Part shown: positions 46,609 through 52,900 of the stretch, one piece after another | Position numbering within the stretch: position 1 is the stretch's first letter | Layout: every line of letters begins with the position of its first letter | Source: a bacterium | Lineage (GTDB): Bacteria; Armatimonadota; Fimbriimonadia; Fimbriimonadales; Fimbriimonadaceae | Direction of reading: 5' to 3' | Length of the DNA stretch: 64,000 bases | Assembly (NCBI GenBank): GCA_027483535.1 | Contig: JAIXUN010000002.1 | Location: 1,116,001-1,180,000 of the forward strand | Translations under genes and position numbers: made by a program | The notes under the pieces: model-generated | Database searches by the model: none | Told to the model about the DNA's origin: nothing | Seen by the model: only the letters and a program-made list of their open reading frames with translations

Positions 46609-47028
46609 TTAGGAGGCGTAGCGCAGGGTGGCCCATTCGTCTAGCTCGGCCTGTTCTCGTTTCTCCATGAGTTGTCGATGCTCAAGCTCGGCTTTCTCGC
46701 GCAGCTTGCGCAGAATCTCGGCGTCTTTCTTCCGCTCCACCCACTCTTCCAAAGCCTTCGCTTCTTCTTGTTGGACAATCGAAAGGGCAGCGGTGTAGCC
46801 TCGCTTTTCGTCGGTGTACCTAGAGGCAAGGTCTTCGGCGGATTGTCTCTCGATGAGGGTTGCCCAGGGCTGTTCTAGAACTTCCAGACGCTTGCGGTCC
46901 AGATTGGAAATCTCGGTTTCAATCTCGATGCGCTCGATCTGCTTGGCGCGGTAGGCGTCCTTTGCCCACGCCTCTTCCATCTCTCGGTAGTCGAGAACGG
47001 TTTGGAGTCGGAATTTAAACTTAGCCAT
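46609..47028 (-). CDS. fliJ: Flagellar export chaperone FliJ
   Basis: FliJ is the coiled-coil stalk that couples the FliI ATPase to the export gate. The 139-residue product starts MAKFKFRLQTVLDYREMEE, the typical FliJ opening, and is almost wholly helical and charged. In most bacteria it directly follows fliI; here 4.5 kb of foreign-looking sequence separates the two. About 12 codons of its start and the DNA upstream are duplicated at 48.4 kb. Confidence 0.85.
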   Translation of the reverse strand: MAKFKFRLQTVLDYREMEEAWAKDAYRAKQIERIEIETEISNLDRKRLEVLEQPWATLIERQSAEDLASRYTDEKRGYTAALSIVQQEEAKALEEWVERKKDAEILRKLREKAELEHRQLMEKREQAELDEWATLRYAS

Positions 47029-47150
47029 GAGTGATCGTTTCTCCTTGCCCGCCGCTCAAACGATTGTCTGGCGGGCTGAGAAGAATCTGGGGGCGCATTC
47101 CCTAAAGAACATTGTCAGGTTTTTCTCAGATTTCTTTAGGGGTGCTTTTT
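46993..47150 (+). repeat. Direct repeat copy A: fliJ head and upstream region
   Basis: This segment of about 158 bases covers the first dozen codons of fliJ and the DNA before it, and recurs as copy B at 48370-48526 with roughly four in five bases equal. Shared blocks include GAGTGATCGTTTCTCCTTGC and CTGGGGGCGCATTCCCT. It can form CCCTAAAGAA / TTCTTTAGGG (10 bp), a stem kept with one mismatch in copy B, and GCCCGCC / GGCGGGC. Confidence 0.85.
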
Positions 47151-47364
47151 GCCCTTCACGATCGTGGGCGGTCGGGTTGGAAGGCTCTGCCCAAAAAACA
47201 CGCGCTACTTTTGGATTCAGTGGAGGGGTGCAGATCACCGCCGACGTTCGCGCACCCAGACGATGATCTGATGGCAGAGTTCTCTGCGGAAGATACGTGA
47301 TTTGCAGGCAGGGAGAGCCGGAACCGTAGACATCAGCAAGATCCCTACCTTAGAATCAGCGGTT

Positions 47365-48165
47365 GTGAAAGTGGTTCATTCCCAGACATTGTCCCGTGTC
47401 TTGCTTGCCGCGGCAGTCATCCTCGTTCCTCTAGGTGCCGAAGCACAGGTGATTCTTGGGGCAACTTCGGTCAACTTCATTACGGAGTACGCGAGCATGA
47501 CCAATTACACGTTTGTGGGTCCGAGGCAGAAGTCTGCTCCGATTCCCGGCGAGGCAAATACATCAGGACAGTTTGGTCCTGATTCATCTGGTTATGTAGC
47601 TGGGTCCTGGGCAGCAAGGTCTTTTGTAAGGGCGATTAATTCTGGGAATGCTTTGAGACTTCTTGAGCTTGCGGCAAGCTCGAGGACCCTTAAGGATGGT
47701 GGCAATCAGAACCTTCATCAAATATCAGCCGCTGGAAGAGTAAGCATAGACATTGATGTAGCTGCTCCAACCCTGGTAACCCAGGATTCAGGGATCAGCA
47801 ATTACTATGAGATCACGGGAACCTCGGGCACGCAGATCGTGAGGTCTTGGGCACACACCAGAGTTACCGACCTTCAAACGAACACAGTTCTTAACGAGCT
47901 AGTCAGGGAAGAAACTGTTCAAACAGCGGGGAAGTTAGATGTTTATCAGAATCACGATCTGACCTACGTGCTCTATCCGGGTCAATATCGAATATCGCTT
48001 CAGGCCATGTCCTATTCGTTTGGTGCATCCGGATTTATCGGCCGGGATGCAAGTACTGGAGCTTACAGCAGGCTATATTTCTCGCCCGTACCCGAGCCGA
48101 CGTCGGTTTCAGCTATGGTCCTGGGTCTCGGCATCTTTTTGAAGCGGCGGAAGAAGAACTCTTAA
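47365..48165 (+). CDS. PEP-CTERM sorting-domain protein
   Basis: The product (266 residues from the GTG at 47365) has a signal peptide (VVHSQTLSRVLLAAAVILVPLGAEA), a beta-rich body without a recognised domain, and a C-terminal sorting tag: VPEPTSVSAMVLGLGIFLKRRKK (PEP motif, hydrophobic helix, basic end). Such tags are cut by exosortase and mark surface or extracellular proteins. No exosortase gene is in the window. The TTG at 47302 gives a longer but unlikely start. The gene sits between repeat copies A and B, opposite to the flagellar operon. The codon make-up is less GC-rich than that of the flanking fli genes. Confidence 0.8.
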   Translation: MKVVHSQTLSRVLLAAAVILVPLGAEAQVILGATSVNFITEYASMTNYTFVGPRQKSAPIPGEANTSGQFGPDSSGYVAGSWAARSFVRAINSGNALRLLELAASSRTLKDGGNQNLHQISAAGRVSIDIDVAAPTLVTQDSGISNYYEITGTSGTQIVRSWAHTRVTDLQTNTVLNELVREETVQTAGKLDVYQNHDLTYVLYPGQYRISLQAMSYSFGASGFIGRDASTGAYSRLYFSPVPEPTSVSAMVLGLGIFLKRRKKNS

Positions 48166-48246: not shown

Positions 48247-48369
48247 TCGTGGAGTTTCCGAAATCTGTATTGGGGTCGAAGATTCGTTTGCGGACTCCGT
48301 GCCTGGAAGGCCCTATCCGAGGTCGCAAACAGTCCTCCTCAGCCAAGTCCCTATTCTGGTGCGGGGGGC

Positions 48370-48526
48370 GAGAACGGTTTGAAGTCGGAATTTAGACTCA
48401 GCCGCGAGTGATCGTTTCTCCTTGCCCGCTTGCTAGTCGGTTGTCTGGCGGGACGAGACGATCCTGGGGGCGCATTCCCTCAAGAATGTTGTCCGGCTTT
48501 TGTCAGAGTTCTTTAGGGGCAGATTT
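48370..48526 (+). repeat. Direct repeat copy B: decayed fliJ head region
   Basis: This is the second copy of the 46993-47150 segment. The fliJ start codon position reads GCG here on the minus strand, and the coding similarity stops after about 12 codons, so this is a non-coding remnant. With copy A it brackets the PEP-CTERM gene; recombination between the two would remove 1.4 kb. Confidence 0.85.
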
Positions 48527-48756
48527 CTCGCGTGACTCCCCAGCCAAGCTGTTTTTTGCTAAGTTCCCCTCACACCCTAAGAATGGTTGCTTTCAGCGGT
48601 TTCAGAGACTCGAGTATGACGGTGAGTCAAAAATGCGGACATAGGAGGAGAACTGCGTTTTCGCAAAATGATTACGTGAATGTCACTCTTGCAAAGGAAA
48701 AACAATAAAAATTAGTAAGTAAGTATAGTATTGAATGTTAAGGACTTGTGAGGATC

Positions 48757-49827
48757 ATGGGCGAGACTGCCATCAAGTACAGGCTGACAAGACTGAGTGA
48801 AGTCCGTCCGGAGTGGGGCAGCAACTCTGGCTACATGCCCGAGGCACCTGCGGAACCCAGGCCGAGCGCGCCGCTCTGGATCACCAAGAAACCCACTGGG
48901 TTGGAGATCCTCTTTGGCGAAGTCGGGTACGAGGACGCACCGGGAGGGAAGGGAACGGTCTGGAAAACCTATTACGAAATGGTTGCCATCAAGAACGATG
49001 TCATTGCCCATGCGTTCCTCAAAGATGTTCGTGACGCAAATTTCAAGGATGCGACACTGCAAGGCTTTGGGCTGTTTCAGGGTGAGGGCGACATCGCTGC
49101 AGCGAACCGCCTGCGTGTGCCGACTATTGATGGAACCATGGGGCGGCCGCTCGTCAAGGCGGCATTAGTCGATTCGACCTTTGTTCCGCCAAATGGTTTC
49201 CGACTTGTCCACTCCAAACCTAATCTTGTCTACAGAAATTTTGCAAAAGATCTAGTAGTGTCGAAAGATTCCCTTGAAAATTATCCTGTTGAGATTGAGG
49301 TGTCTTTGAACGCTAAAGGTGAACCCAAGGTTATCTCCTGGAGCACCAAGTGGAAGACATACGTCGATCAGGATCTAATCCGGATTGAAGTAGCGGGGTA
49401 CGCCCAGACTGCAATCGGGAAAGCTCCCACCAAGATGACTTTTTCAGAGACCTTTGGAAAATTGAAGCGAGTCGAGGAGTTTAATCTCGTTTCCACCAAA
49501 ACAGAAATGCCCCTATCGTTCTGGAACCTTGTGGCAGGTAAGCAGGTAAGGGATTACAGACTAAGCGGACTGGCTCGCGGCGAAGATGCGTTCTTTAAGA
49601 AGTCGGTCCCTCCGGTTGCCTACACTTGGGAAGGCAAGCCGCTTTCTCTCGCCGAGCTGAAGAAAAGCGAGACCGTTAAGGTGGTGAGACCAGCCTTAGA
49701 GATAGGAATGGTTCCGAGAGGATCGGTGCAGCCGTTTAACCTTGCGGTCATCGTGGTTTCTGCTGTTGCCCTAGTGGGTCTTGTCGTTTGGATTGCCGTG
49801 GGCAGTAGGAACCGCAAAGCCGTTTGA
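48757..49827 (+). CDS. Tail-anchored hypothetical protein, paralog 1
   Basis: This 356-residue protein has no N-terminal signal, a large soluble domain, and a single C-terminal membrane helix (LAVIVVSAVALVGLVVWIAV) ending in a basic tail (RNRKAV). Notable segments are YEDAPGGKGTVWKTYYEMVAIK and KQVRDYRLSGLARG, shared with the next gene. No family is recognised. I chose the ATG at 48757 because its upstream AAGGAC aligns with the GAGGAC before the paralog's ATG; GTG 48748 is possible. Topology predicts a cytoplasmic domain fixed to the membrane from the C-terminus. Confidence 0.7.
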   Translation: MGETAIKYRLTRLSEVRPEWGSNSGYMPEAPAEPRPSAPLWITKKPTGLEILFGEVGYEDAPGGKGTVWKTYYEMVAIKNDVIAHAFLKDVRDANFKDATLQGFGLFQGEGDIAAANRLRVPTIDGTMGRPLVKAALVDSTFVPPNGFRLVHSKPNLVYRNFAKDLVVSKDSLENYPVEIEVSLNAKGEPKVISWSTKWKTYVDQDLIRIEVAGYAQTAIGKAPTKMTFSETFGKLKRVEEFNLVSTKTEMPLSFWNLVAGKQVRDYRLSGLARGEDAFFKKSVPPVAYTWEGKPLSLAELKKSETVKVVRPALEIGMVPRGSVQPFNLAVIVVSAVALVGLVVWIAVGSRNRKAV

Positions 49828-49934
49828 GGTTGGGAAGAACACCCCTGAGAGCCAAAGCCATGAGACCAAGCAGTGAAAAAGATTATCGAAAAGGGAACTG
49901 CCAACTAGAGCTAAATAGTGAGGACCTGTAATTA

Positions 49935-51014
49935 ATGAGTGAACAAAACCCTAATGCAGTCAAGTTTTCCGTGAAGCACATTTCTGAAATTCTTCCGGAT
50001 GCGAACGGCTCCTCCCTGCATATTCCAAAACCTCCCATGGAAGCAATGCCCAACACTTCGATTTGGATATCCAAATCGTCCGATGGGCTAGAGTTCCTTT
50101 ACGGGATTCTGGGCTTTGAGGATGCACCTGGAGGAAAGGGAACCGTCTGGAAAACGTACCATGAAATGGTCGCAATAAAGGAGGACATCATTGCCCACAC
50201 CTATCTTGAGAAGGTGAACGGCGACAGCTTCAAGTCTGCCTCTTTCCCGGCATTTGCGATCTACAAAGGAGAGGGCTCTACCCAGGAATCGAATAGGCTC
50301 GATCTGCCGACTACATCGGGTTCGCTTGTCCGACCTTTCGTTAAGTCTGTTTTGACAGAAGCGACCTTTGTTCCGCCAAAGGGTTTTGAAAAAGTCCAAT
50401 CGAATCCAATCTTGATCTATCGGAACTTCAACAAAAAACGGGTGGTTTCCAAGGAGAGTCTCGAACCATATCCAATTGAGATATCGGTGAAACTGAATGA
50501 AGACGGTGAGCCCTCAGTAATCGAATGGAGCACAAAAATGAAGGTCTATAAGGACGAAAATGTCGTCCGCCTCGAGATTGATGGGTACACCGAAACAGTG
50601 ATCGGAAGGGTTCCGGCCAAGGTACTCTTCTCAGACACATTTGGGAAGTCTAAGCGTATAGAGGCGATAGAATTAGCGTCTAGTGATACCGAAATGCCTG
50701 TGTCTTTCTGGAAGTTGGCAGAGGGCAAGCAGGTTAGGGATTACCGGCTAAGTGGGCTGGCCCGTGGAGAAAATGCGTTTTTCAAGAAGTCGGTCCCTCC
50801 GGTTGCCTATGCTTGGGAAGGCAAGCCCCTTTCTCTCGGCGAGCTGAAGAAGAGGGAACCCGTGAAGGTGGTGAGTTCACCCTTTGTAAAGGGAGTTGTC
50901 CCTGGAGGATCGGCTCAGCTGACTAATCTGGCCGTAATCGTAGTGTCTGCCGTGGCCGTCGTGGGTCTTTTCGTTTGGATTGCCATGGGAATCATGAAGC
51001 GCAAAGCTGCCTAA
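49935..51014 (+). CDS. Tail-anchored hypothetical protein, paralog 2
   Basis: This 359-residue protein is a tandem paralog of the preceding gene with more than half of residues alike over its whole length. Near the C-terminus DNA identity is very high (KKSVPPVAYAWEGKPLSLGELKK against the near-identical segment upstream). It also ends in one membrane helix (LAVIVVSAVAVVGLFVWIAMG) and a basic tail (KRKAA). The 107-base gap between the two carries no clear terminator, so one transcript is likely. Its function is unknown. Confidence 0.7.
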   Translation: MSEQNPNAVKFSVKHISEILPDANGSSLHIPKPPMEAMPNTSIWISKSSDGLEFLYGILGFEDAPGGKGTVWKTYHEMVAIKEDIIAHTYLEKVNGDSFKSASFPAFAIYKGEGSTQESNRLDLPTTSGSLVRPFVKSVLTEATFVPPKGFEKVQSNPILIYRNFNKKRVVSKESLEPYPIEISVKLNEDGEPSVIEWSTKMKVYKDENVVRLEIDGYTETVIGRVPAKVLFSDTFGKSKRIEAIELASSDTEMPVSFWKLAEGKQVRDYRLSGLARGENAFFKKSVPPVAYAWEGKPLSLGELKKREPVKVVSSPFVKGVVPGGSAQLTNLAVIVVSAVAVVGLFVWIAMGIMKRKAA

Positions 51015-51110: not shown

Positions 51111-51569
51111 ATGAAGTGCTTTGCCTGTTACAGAGTGGTAGGGCATCAGATGATCCAGGCTGAAGATTCACCGGCAGTGATTCAGGCGCTCGTCGGTTTT
51201 CTGCTTTTTGCGCCCGGTGTGTACCTCGCTCCTTGGAAAGGGCGCGGAAAGATTCTCGCCCTAATCTTTCATTGGGCGCACCGAAGTTGGATAGTTTGGC
51301 GGACTTTAGAAGAATCGGAGCGTTGGAGACGAGGCAATCCCACTCACTTGCTTCGTGATTGGCTGACCGATGCGAACGGCGTTCTCATCGAGTTCTGGGT
51401 TCCGTTTCTGTTGCAGGCCGTTGTAGGCGCGGCGTTGATCGCGATCGCTCGAAAAGAAGGAACGTTGAGAATTGAGAGGCGGAATGTTTGGCCGTGGCTG
51501 ATTCCCGACGCCGTCCTGCTCGCAAGCCTGGCGTATCTGTCGTTCGTGATAGCGCGAGTGCATCCCTAA
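51111..51569 (+). CDS. Hypothetical membrane protein convergent with fliI
   Basis: The 152-residue product has three likely membrane helices (AVIQALVGFLLFAPGVYLA, FWVPFLLQAVVGAALIAIA and IPDAVLLASLAYLSFVIA) with a basic, Trp-rich loop between the first two. ATG 51150 (MIQAED) is an alternative start. Its stop overlaps the fliI stop by four bases on the other strand. It closes the 4.5-kb insert. No family is recognised. Confidence 0.6.
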   Translation: MKCFACYRVVGHQMIQAEDSPAVIQALVGFLLFAPGVYLAPWKGRGKILALIFHWAHRSWIVWRTLEESERWRRGNPTHLLRDWLTDANGVLIEFWVPFLLQAVVGAALIAIARKEGTLRIERRNVWPWLIPDAVLLASLAYLSFVIARVHP

Positions 51570-52900
51570 ACCGACGCGATTTCCCGAAGCGCCATCTGCG
51601 TCACGTCGATCGGTGTTCCTTCATCTTTCGCCTGACGCAAGAACATGTTCATCGGATCGCGCAGCTTAATCGCCAAGTCGCTCGTCTCGTTCGACCCCTG
51701 CTTGTAAGCGCCGATAGACACCAGGTCTTCGACATCCGCATACGCTGCCATGAGCTCGCGGAAGCGGTTGGCAGAGGCCATTTGCTCTCCATCGACAACA
51801 AACGGCATGGTTCGACTCAGGCTCTGCTGAATGTCGATCGGAGGGTAGTGCCCCTTCGAGGTCAGTCGGCGGTTGAGCACGACGTGGCCATCCAGAATCG
51901 ATCGCGCGGCGTCGGCGATGGGCTCGTTGGTGTCGTCACCGTCTACAAGAACGGTGTACAGCGCGGTGATCGCGCCTCGTGGACCCATGCCCGCGCGCTC
52001 CATCAGGCGGGGAAGCAATGCAAAAACGCTTGGGGTGTAACCCTTCGTGCTGGGCGGCTCTCCGATAGCCAGGCCGACTTCTCGTTGGGCCATGGCGAAT
52101 CGAGTGACCGAGTCCATCATCAGTAGCACCGATTTGCCTTGATCCCGAAAACCCTCCGCAATCGCGGTCGCAGTAAGAGCGGCTTTGATCCGCACGAGGG
52201 CAGGTTGCTCGCCCGTGGCGCAAACAATCACGCTGCGAGCCAAGCCTTCCGGACCGAGGTCGTTCTCAATGAACTCGCGAACCTCACGACCCCGTTCTCC
52301 CACCAGGCAAATCACGTTCACTTCCGCAGTGCAGTTCCGGGCGATCATGCCGAGCAGGGTGCTTTTGCCCACGCCCGATCCGGCGAAAATGCCCATCCGT
52401 TGCCCCTCACCTAAAGTGAGCAGACCGTCGATCGCACGTACACCCGTCTCTAGCGGGCGAGAGATCATTTGTCTTTCGAGCGCGCCGGGAGGACTGGCTT
52501 GAATCGGAGCGTAAAAATCGGCTTCGATGGCGCCCTTGCCGTCCATCGGATTGCCCAATCCGTCCAAAACTCGGCCGAGCATTTTGTTCGAGACAGGAAC
52601 TTTCATGCAGCCTCCGCTGGACTTGACAAGGTCTCCGGCTCGAACACCTTCCAGATCGCCAAGGGGCATCAGCAGGGTCTTTTCACCCTTGAATCCCACC
52701 ACCTCGGCGGCGACTCGGCTGGTGACGTCGGAAGAGTTGACGGATTCGATGAAGCAGAGGTCGCCAATGCGGCAGTTCGGACCATCCGACTCGATCACGA
52801 GTCCAACAACCTTGGAGACCCGACCGTACACGTTGATCAGGTCGGTCATGTCCAGCGCCTGGGTCAGACGCTTAAACTTGGGTTCGGGGATGGCGATCAT
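51566..52900 (-). CDS. fliI: Flagellar export ATPase FliI
   Basis: FliI is the beta-F1-like ATPase of the flagellar type III export apparatus. The Walker A is GIFAGSGVGKSTLLGMIARNC, Walker B is SVLLMMDSVTRFAMAQREVG, and VVCATGEQPALVR-like and GEPPSTKGYTPSVFALLPRLMERAG blocks are conserved. The length is 444 residues. The ATG overlaps the fliH stop as ATGA. fliJ should follow but lies 4.5 kb further on. Confidence 0.96.
   Translation of the reverse strand: MIAIPEPKFKRLTQALDMTDLINVYGRVSKVVGLVIESDGPNCRIGDLCFIESVNSSDVTSRVAAEVVGFKGEKTLLMPLGDLEGVRAGDLVKSSGGCMKVPVSNKMLGRVLDGLGNPMDGKGAIEADFYAPIQASPPGALERQMISRPLETGVRAIDGLLTLGEGQRMGIFAGSGVGKSTLLGMIARNCTAEVNVICLVGERGREVREFIENDLGPEGLARSVIVCATGEQPALVRIKAALTATAIAEGFRDQGKSVLLMMDSVTRFAMAQREVGLAIGEPPSTKGYTPSVFALLPRLMERAGMGPRGAITALYTVLVDGDDTNEPIADAARSILDGHVVLNRRLTSKGHYPPIDIQQSLSRTMPFVVDGEQMASANRFRELMAAYADVEDLVSIGAYKQGSNETSDLAIKLRDPMNMFLRQAKDEGTPIDVTQMALREIASV

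Follow-up and report, generated by a model that had tools for sequence, protein, structure and literature searches.

The window analysed here, a 64,000-nucleotide stretch of DNA from an Armatimonadota genome of 3.77 Mb (G000), carries a pair of tandem genes that sit in a 4.5 kb opposite-strand insert between fliJ and fliI of a flagellar cluster. The insert and its borders contain the following features:

46609..47028, minus strand: fliJ-like gene, insert border (tblastn to relatives)
47302..48165, plus strand: PEP-CTERM protein, neighbour of the pair in the insert (TIGR02595, 24.7 bits, cut-off 16; 47302 is the frame start, and the true start is probably further in)
48757..49827, plus strand: paralog 1 (P0001), ORF of 356 aa, whose longest frame begins with GTG at 48748
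48931..48972, plus strand: block EDAPGGKGTVWKTY in paralog 1, common to both paralogs (pairwise alignment)
49738..49800, plus strand: C-terminal membrane helix of paralog 1 (hydropathy), followed by the basic tail GSRNRKAV
49935..51014, plus strand: paralog 2 (P0002), ORF of 359 aa, with an in-frame stop immediately 5' of its ATG
50925..50987, plus strand: C-terminal membrane helix of paralog 2 (hydropathy), followed by the basic tail GIMKRKAA
51111..51569, plus strand: putative membrane ORF of 152 aa, insert neighbour with no family match
51566..52900, minus strand: fliI, the other insert border (comparison with relatives)

The fliI and fliJ genes are adjacent in two relatives (G016 and G017), and the sequence beyond fliI varies among the remaining relatives that were compared. 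A direct repeat of 158 nt, 82% identical between its copies (46985-47142 and 48362-48519), spans the fliJ start and the sequence upstream of it and flanks the PEP-CTERM gene; these two copies are the only ones in the genome, and the repeat may mark how the insert formed. An exosortase gene is present elsewhere in the genome. The pair resembles the substrates of PEP-CTERM/exosortase systems in its C-terminal helix and basic tail, and a true PEP-CTERM gene adjoins it, but it differs from them in having no sorting motif, no NCBIfam or Pfam match and no signal peptide.

Sequence features and divergence of the two paralogs

The original prediction described tandem paralogs that have conserved blocks and a C-terminal membrane helix ending in a basic tail but lack a signal peptide, and on each of these points it was borne out. 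The two proteins are 58% identical over 356 columns of their pairwise alignment and share the blocks EDAPGGKGTVWKTY and KQVRDYRLSGLARGE, the former preceded by Y in one paralog and by F in the other and kept within the pair only, not across the wider family introduced below. Cysteine is absent from both. The best 19-residue mean hydropathy of the C-terminal helix is 2.9 in paralog 1 and 2.8 in paralog 2, and three basic residues follow it in each (tails ..SRNRKAV and ..MKRKAA). Both N-termini are hydrophilic, and none of the three forward frames that precede each gene contains a hydrophobic candidate for a signal peptide, so that a missed one was rejected; a match to a known enzyme, the other outcome that the original prediction had set against itself, was likewise looked for and not found. 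Each paralog thus has the lone helix at its extreme C-terminus, without a signal peptide, by which tail-anchored proteins are recognized. Since dN is low (0.30) while dS is saturating (1.81; dN/dS ~0.17), both paralogs have long been kept under selection, and they are genuine coding genes under purifying selection.

The divergence between the paralogs is uneven. The claim of a nearly identical C-terminal part holds for residues 264-306, which are 93% identical in amino acids and 87% in nucleotides, but not for what follows, with identity down to 48% over residues 307-331 and at 76% in the membrane helix. The synonymous difference pS is ~0.78 (saturated) before codon ~260 and 0.42-0.55 beyond it, and codons at conserved residues are identical in 52/128 cases before that point and in 44/71 after it (Fisher p = 0.005). 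Given this drop in pS, and given that the longest run identical between the paralogs measures 26 nt, the last ~95 codons possibly represent an old, eroded, local conversion tract or a local constraint, and the suggestion that gene conversion is ongoing finds no support.

The size of the pair is not exceptional either, because tail-anchored proteins of 300-600 aa have already been reported: in one Streptomyces, Craney et al. (2011) listed 20 high-confidence tail-anchored proteins, some of them of 317-576 aa (PMC3087755), which weakens the earlier statement that bacteria seldom have tail-anchored proteins so large. The pair is like those proteins in its single C-terminal helix, short tail and want of an N-terminal signal, and differs from them in coming from an otherwise signal-bearing family and in having a basic tail that argues for the opposite topology.

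A phylum-wide family with a LolA-type fold

Neither paralog has a match in Pfam, NCBIfam, PHROGs, PADLOC or, by sequence, the PDB, apart from a single SecE match in PADLOC that falls on the membrane helix and lies under the cut-off. Single-sequence searches for the pair in 100 related genomes returned no homolog, and a search of wider genome contigs with paralog 2 gave no match. A phage or plasmid origin was rejected, there being no significant match in viral contigs or in the records of phages and plasmids. When both paralogs were combined into a profile and searched against 291 Armatimonadota genomes, this produced weak matches only, most of which were rejected as chance (antisense frames, a ribosomal protein, FabH, HutH); one of them, in G075 (locus L032), has the pair's order of motif and then helix.

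A search with this G075 protein led to a diverse family, aligned as A2 with a seed of 22 members, from which a family HMM was built without the window pair. This HMM scores paralog 1 at 37.1 bits and paralog 2 at 28.3 bits, as against a best score of 8.8 bits in 20,000 shuffled controls that keep the hydrophobic tail, and it delimits the following homologous parts:

49273..49665, plus strand: family-homologous part of paralog 1, aa 173-303, comprising the second half of the LolA-fold sheet and the motif GKQVRDYRL..VAYTWEGKPLSLAELK (HMM)
50475..50855, plus strand: family-homologous part of paralog 2, aa 181-307, the same region as aa 173-303 of paralog 1 (HMM)

Alignment of the pair with the family by hhalign gives a probability of 95% and an E value of 3.6e-8 over 122 columns that do not include the membrane helix. 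Searched against the 291 genomes, the A2 profile finds the family in 37, at up to 5 copies per genome that are often in tandem, and recovers the window pair as the only family member in its own genome (E 5e-9). The family signature, GxxVxDxRL...VxYxWxGxLPxxxEL followed by a helix and a basic tail, is present in the pair, with motif order and spacing kept up to the helix; the N-terminal ~170 residues of the pair align poorly with the family, and homology is confined to the C-terminal half. On this sequence evidence we assign the pair to an Armatimonadota family of LolA-fold, C-anchored proteins, as divergent members. The profile search that had been proposed thus placed the pair, and the label of an unknown family holds insofar as no database family matches, while the pair is not isolated and forms a divergent branch of a phylum-wide family. 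Scanned against Pfam, the A2 members have no covering family, and one member gives a sub-threshold LolA_like hint; the family itself has no prior description in the databases and papers searched, whereas the LolA-superfamily fold is already known. Two members depart from the usual gene form: that of G032 (L107:989-1900) stops right after YxWTG, without the C-terminal helix, and is possibly a secreted form, and that of G045 (L106:5379-6349) is split into two frames, a signal peptide with the first part and the remainder, by a frameshift or a sequencing error.

Structure prediction, also proposed at the outset, was unusable for the pair itself (AlphaFold pLDDT 34.5) and succeeded for the G075 family member, for which AlphaFold2 with the alignment of 22 sequences returned a model of pLDDT 86.6 and pTM 0.80. 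Compared with the PDB, this model gives VIA Z scores of 14.6 for DUF1329 (4z48; 208 residues aligned, 3.3 A), 14.4 for LolA3, 13.8 for a LolA superfamily protein and 13.7 for LolB, the LolA-type matches running from 14.6 down to ~10 and spanning model residues 20-326; RseB appears in the list at 7.9 and 7.4, and Foldseek yields an E value of 2.6e-7. As judged from this model, the family has the predicted fold of the LolA/LolB superfamily, which also includes DUF1329, LprG and the N-domain of RseB, and for the window pair we infer a LolA-type fold by homology over the C-terminal half. The likeness lies in a helix and a large curved antiparallel sheet (Z 10-14.6), at an identity of only 7-11%. 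Unlike the superfamily, whose members are soluble or lipid-anchored, the family is anchored by a C-terminal helix, has a conserved DYRL/YxWxG segment after the sheet and clusters with a cysteine-rich protein, and the window pair has no signal peptide. Identity with LolA proper, the soluble periplasmic carrier that works with LolCDE and LolB, was rejected, as the pair is membrane-anchored and signal-less and no Lol genes were recognized in the insert.

Signal peptides and gene neighbourhoods of the family

A signal peptide, together with the C-terminal helix and basic tail, is found in 22/22 seed members of A2, and a signal peptide is also found in the family members of G007, G002, G011 and G008 (the pair's genus). 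It is absent from the window pair and from the G003 member (L101), which is still accompanied by a secreted cysteine-rich partner; the family tree is weak and does not separate one from two losses of the signal peptide (G000, G003).

Around other family members, genes recur in the order ECF sigma factor, DUF1573-like protein, cysteine-rich secreted protein, LolA-fold protein, O-antigen-ligase-like protein and pseudopilin (SIG-D1573-CYS-FAM-OAL-PIL), as exemplified by L119 (G075), L114 (G091), L115 (G189) and L175 (G007), the O-antigen-ligase-like gene encoding a Wzy_C protein and the pseudopilin being of the DUF1559 type. In G075, O-antigen-ligase and peptidoglycan transglycosylase domains occur in a single open frame (L119:8625-10796). 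The cysteine-rich protein (alignment A3; the DUF1573-like protein is A4) is small and secreted, with ~10 cysteines of which seven columns are invariant and two nearly so, and the members scanned have no match in Pfam or NCBIfam. Its gene lies directly upstream of 23/47 family genes or fragments, an adjacency that is circular in the profile's own seeds, and the genomes that encode it all fall within the 37 family genomes (16/16, hypergeometric 1.6e-16), which is partly so by construction, the profile having been seeded from family neighbours. VKOR genes stand beside the clusters in G007, G011, G174 and G038, and a MauE gene in G008, which fits an oxidative folding of the cysteine-rich product that these neighbours would suggest. 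Several family clusters are in this respect like the known systems in which MauE or VKOR assists the maturation of disulfide-rich secreted proteins, in that their cysteine-rich and LolA-fold genes have one for MauE or VKOR as a neighbour; the differences are that the window pair has no such neighbours and that the cysteine-rich protein of the family is of a new type. The literature searched contained no description of such a module. Profile matches to the cysteine-rich and DUF1573-like partners were looked for in the pair's genome, and neither was found. As it has neither the signal peptide nor the partner genes, the pair is, judging by its sequence, a signal-less variant and an orphan offshoot of the family and not a typical member.

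Topology and possible role of the pair

The family would consist of a LolA-fold domain fixed to the inner membrane via the C-terminal helix. In the relatives, the signal peptide would put this LolA-like half-barrel in the periplasm, where its most likely task is to bind a client through a lipid or another hydrophobic part; the client is probably the small disulfide-rich secreted protein encoded just upstream, which would be chaperoned or displayed, the two genes presumably being expressed under the ECF sigma factor together with the pseudopilin and O-antigen-ligase-like genes. The pair would have lost the signal peptide and both partner genes, undergone tandem duplication and come to lie in the flagellar-cluster insert, and most likely it has been retained as a protein that is tethered to the membrane and binds hydrophobic ligands, with a changed role and probably facing the cytoplasm. 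We infer the ligand, client, topology and function of pair and family alike, the client and ligand from guilt by association, and a LolA fold is by itself no proof of lipid binding. To this explanation as a whole, divergent LolA-fold family members that are orphaned, have lost the signal and probably face the cytoplasm, we give even credence, and it is the best that we have.

Its main rival, which we consider rather unlikely, concerns topology: the pair may keep a periplasmic domain, with the basic tail inside, and reach this N-out state without a classical signal, for example through YidC/SecYEG N-tail translocation or a partner. The three basic residues after the helix are what this topology leads one to expect, are shared with the signal-bearing relatives and conflict with a cytoplasmic domain; outward-facing tail-anchored proteins have been reported in Streptomyces (PMC3087755), and the signal-less G003 member retains its secreted partner. 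Against this, such a route would call for moving ~325 hydrophilic residues through the membrane unaided by a signal, and the hydrophilic N-terminus has no apparent Tat motif. We favour the cytoplasm-facing, tail-anchored state.

An improbable alternative is that the family resembles RseB/MucB, acting as a periplasmic LolA-like sensor that tunes the adjacent ECF sigma factor, with the window pair as a detached copy. RseB is indeed among the structural matches and ECF sigma genes occur in several clusters, but LolA, LolB and DUF1329 match far better, the model has one LolA-type domain and a helix where RseB/MucB has two domains, the cytoplasmic tail of ~5-12 residues is too short for holding a sigma factor, no zinc-finger anti-sigma protein was recognized among the neighbours scanned, and neither a sigma nor an anti-sigma gene lies beside the pair. 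Slightly less probable still is that the pair forms a lineage-specific tail-anchored family with no kinship to the LolA-fold proteins and that DYRL and YxWxG are shared by convergence: the unalignable N-terminal half and the zero single-sequence matches among 100 relatives would agree with it, but a profile score of 37 bits, against a shuffled maximum of 8.8, comes from a match outside the membrane helix, and conserved motif order and spacing run up to that helix. That the copies are functionless, decaying relics, as the missing signal peptide, partners and remaining cluster might suggest, is the least probable reading, with both frames intact and dN/dS ~0.17 (dS saturated).

The formerly orphan pair now has its place in a family whose fold is predicted, and in a poorly studied phylum a gene module comes to light that recurs and is apparently undescribed. 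More tentatively, with somewhat less than even confidence, we propose that a LolA-type domain for hydrophobic ligands, once periplasmic, may have come to lie on the cytoplasmic side of the membrane when the signal peptide was lost and the helix retained, so that the result would be a tail-anchored protein that handles lipids, and that the relatives may define a new export or surface module comprising the sigma factor, the DUF1573-like protein, the ten-cysteine secreted protein, the anchored LolA-fold protein and the pseudopilin. The pair offers a natural example of a membrane-anchored protein that has lost its signal peptide, and the cytoplasmic re-use of a periplasmic LolA-type domain that it suggests is directly testable.
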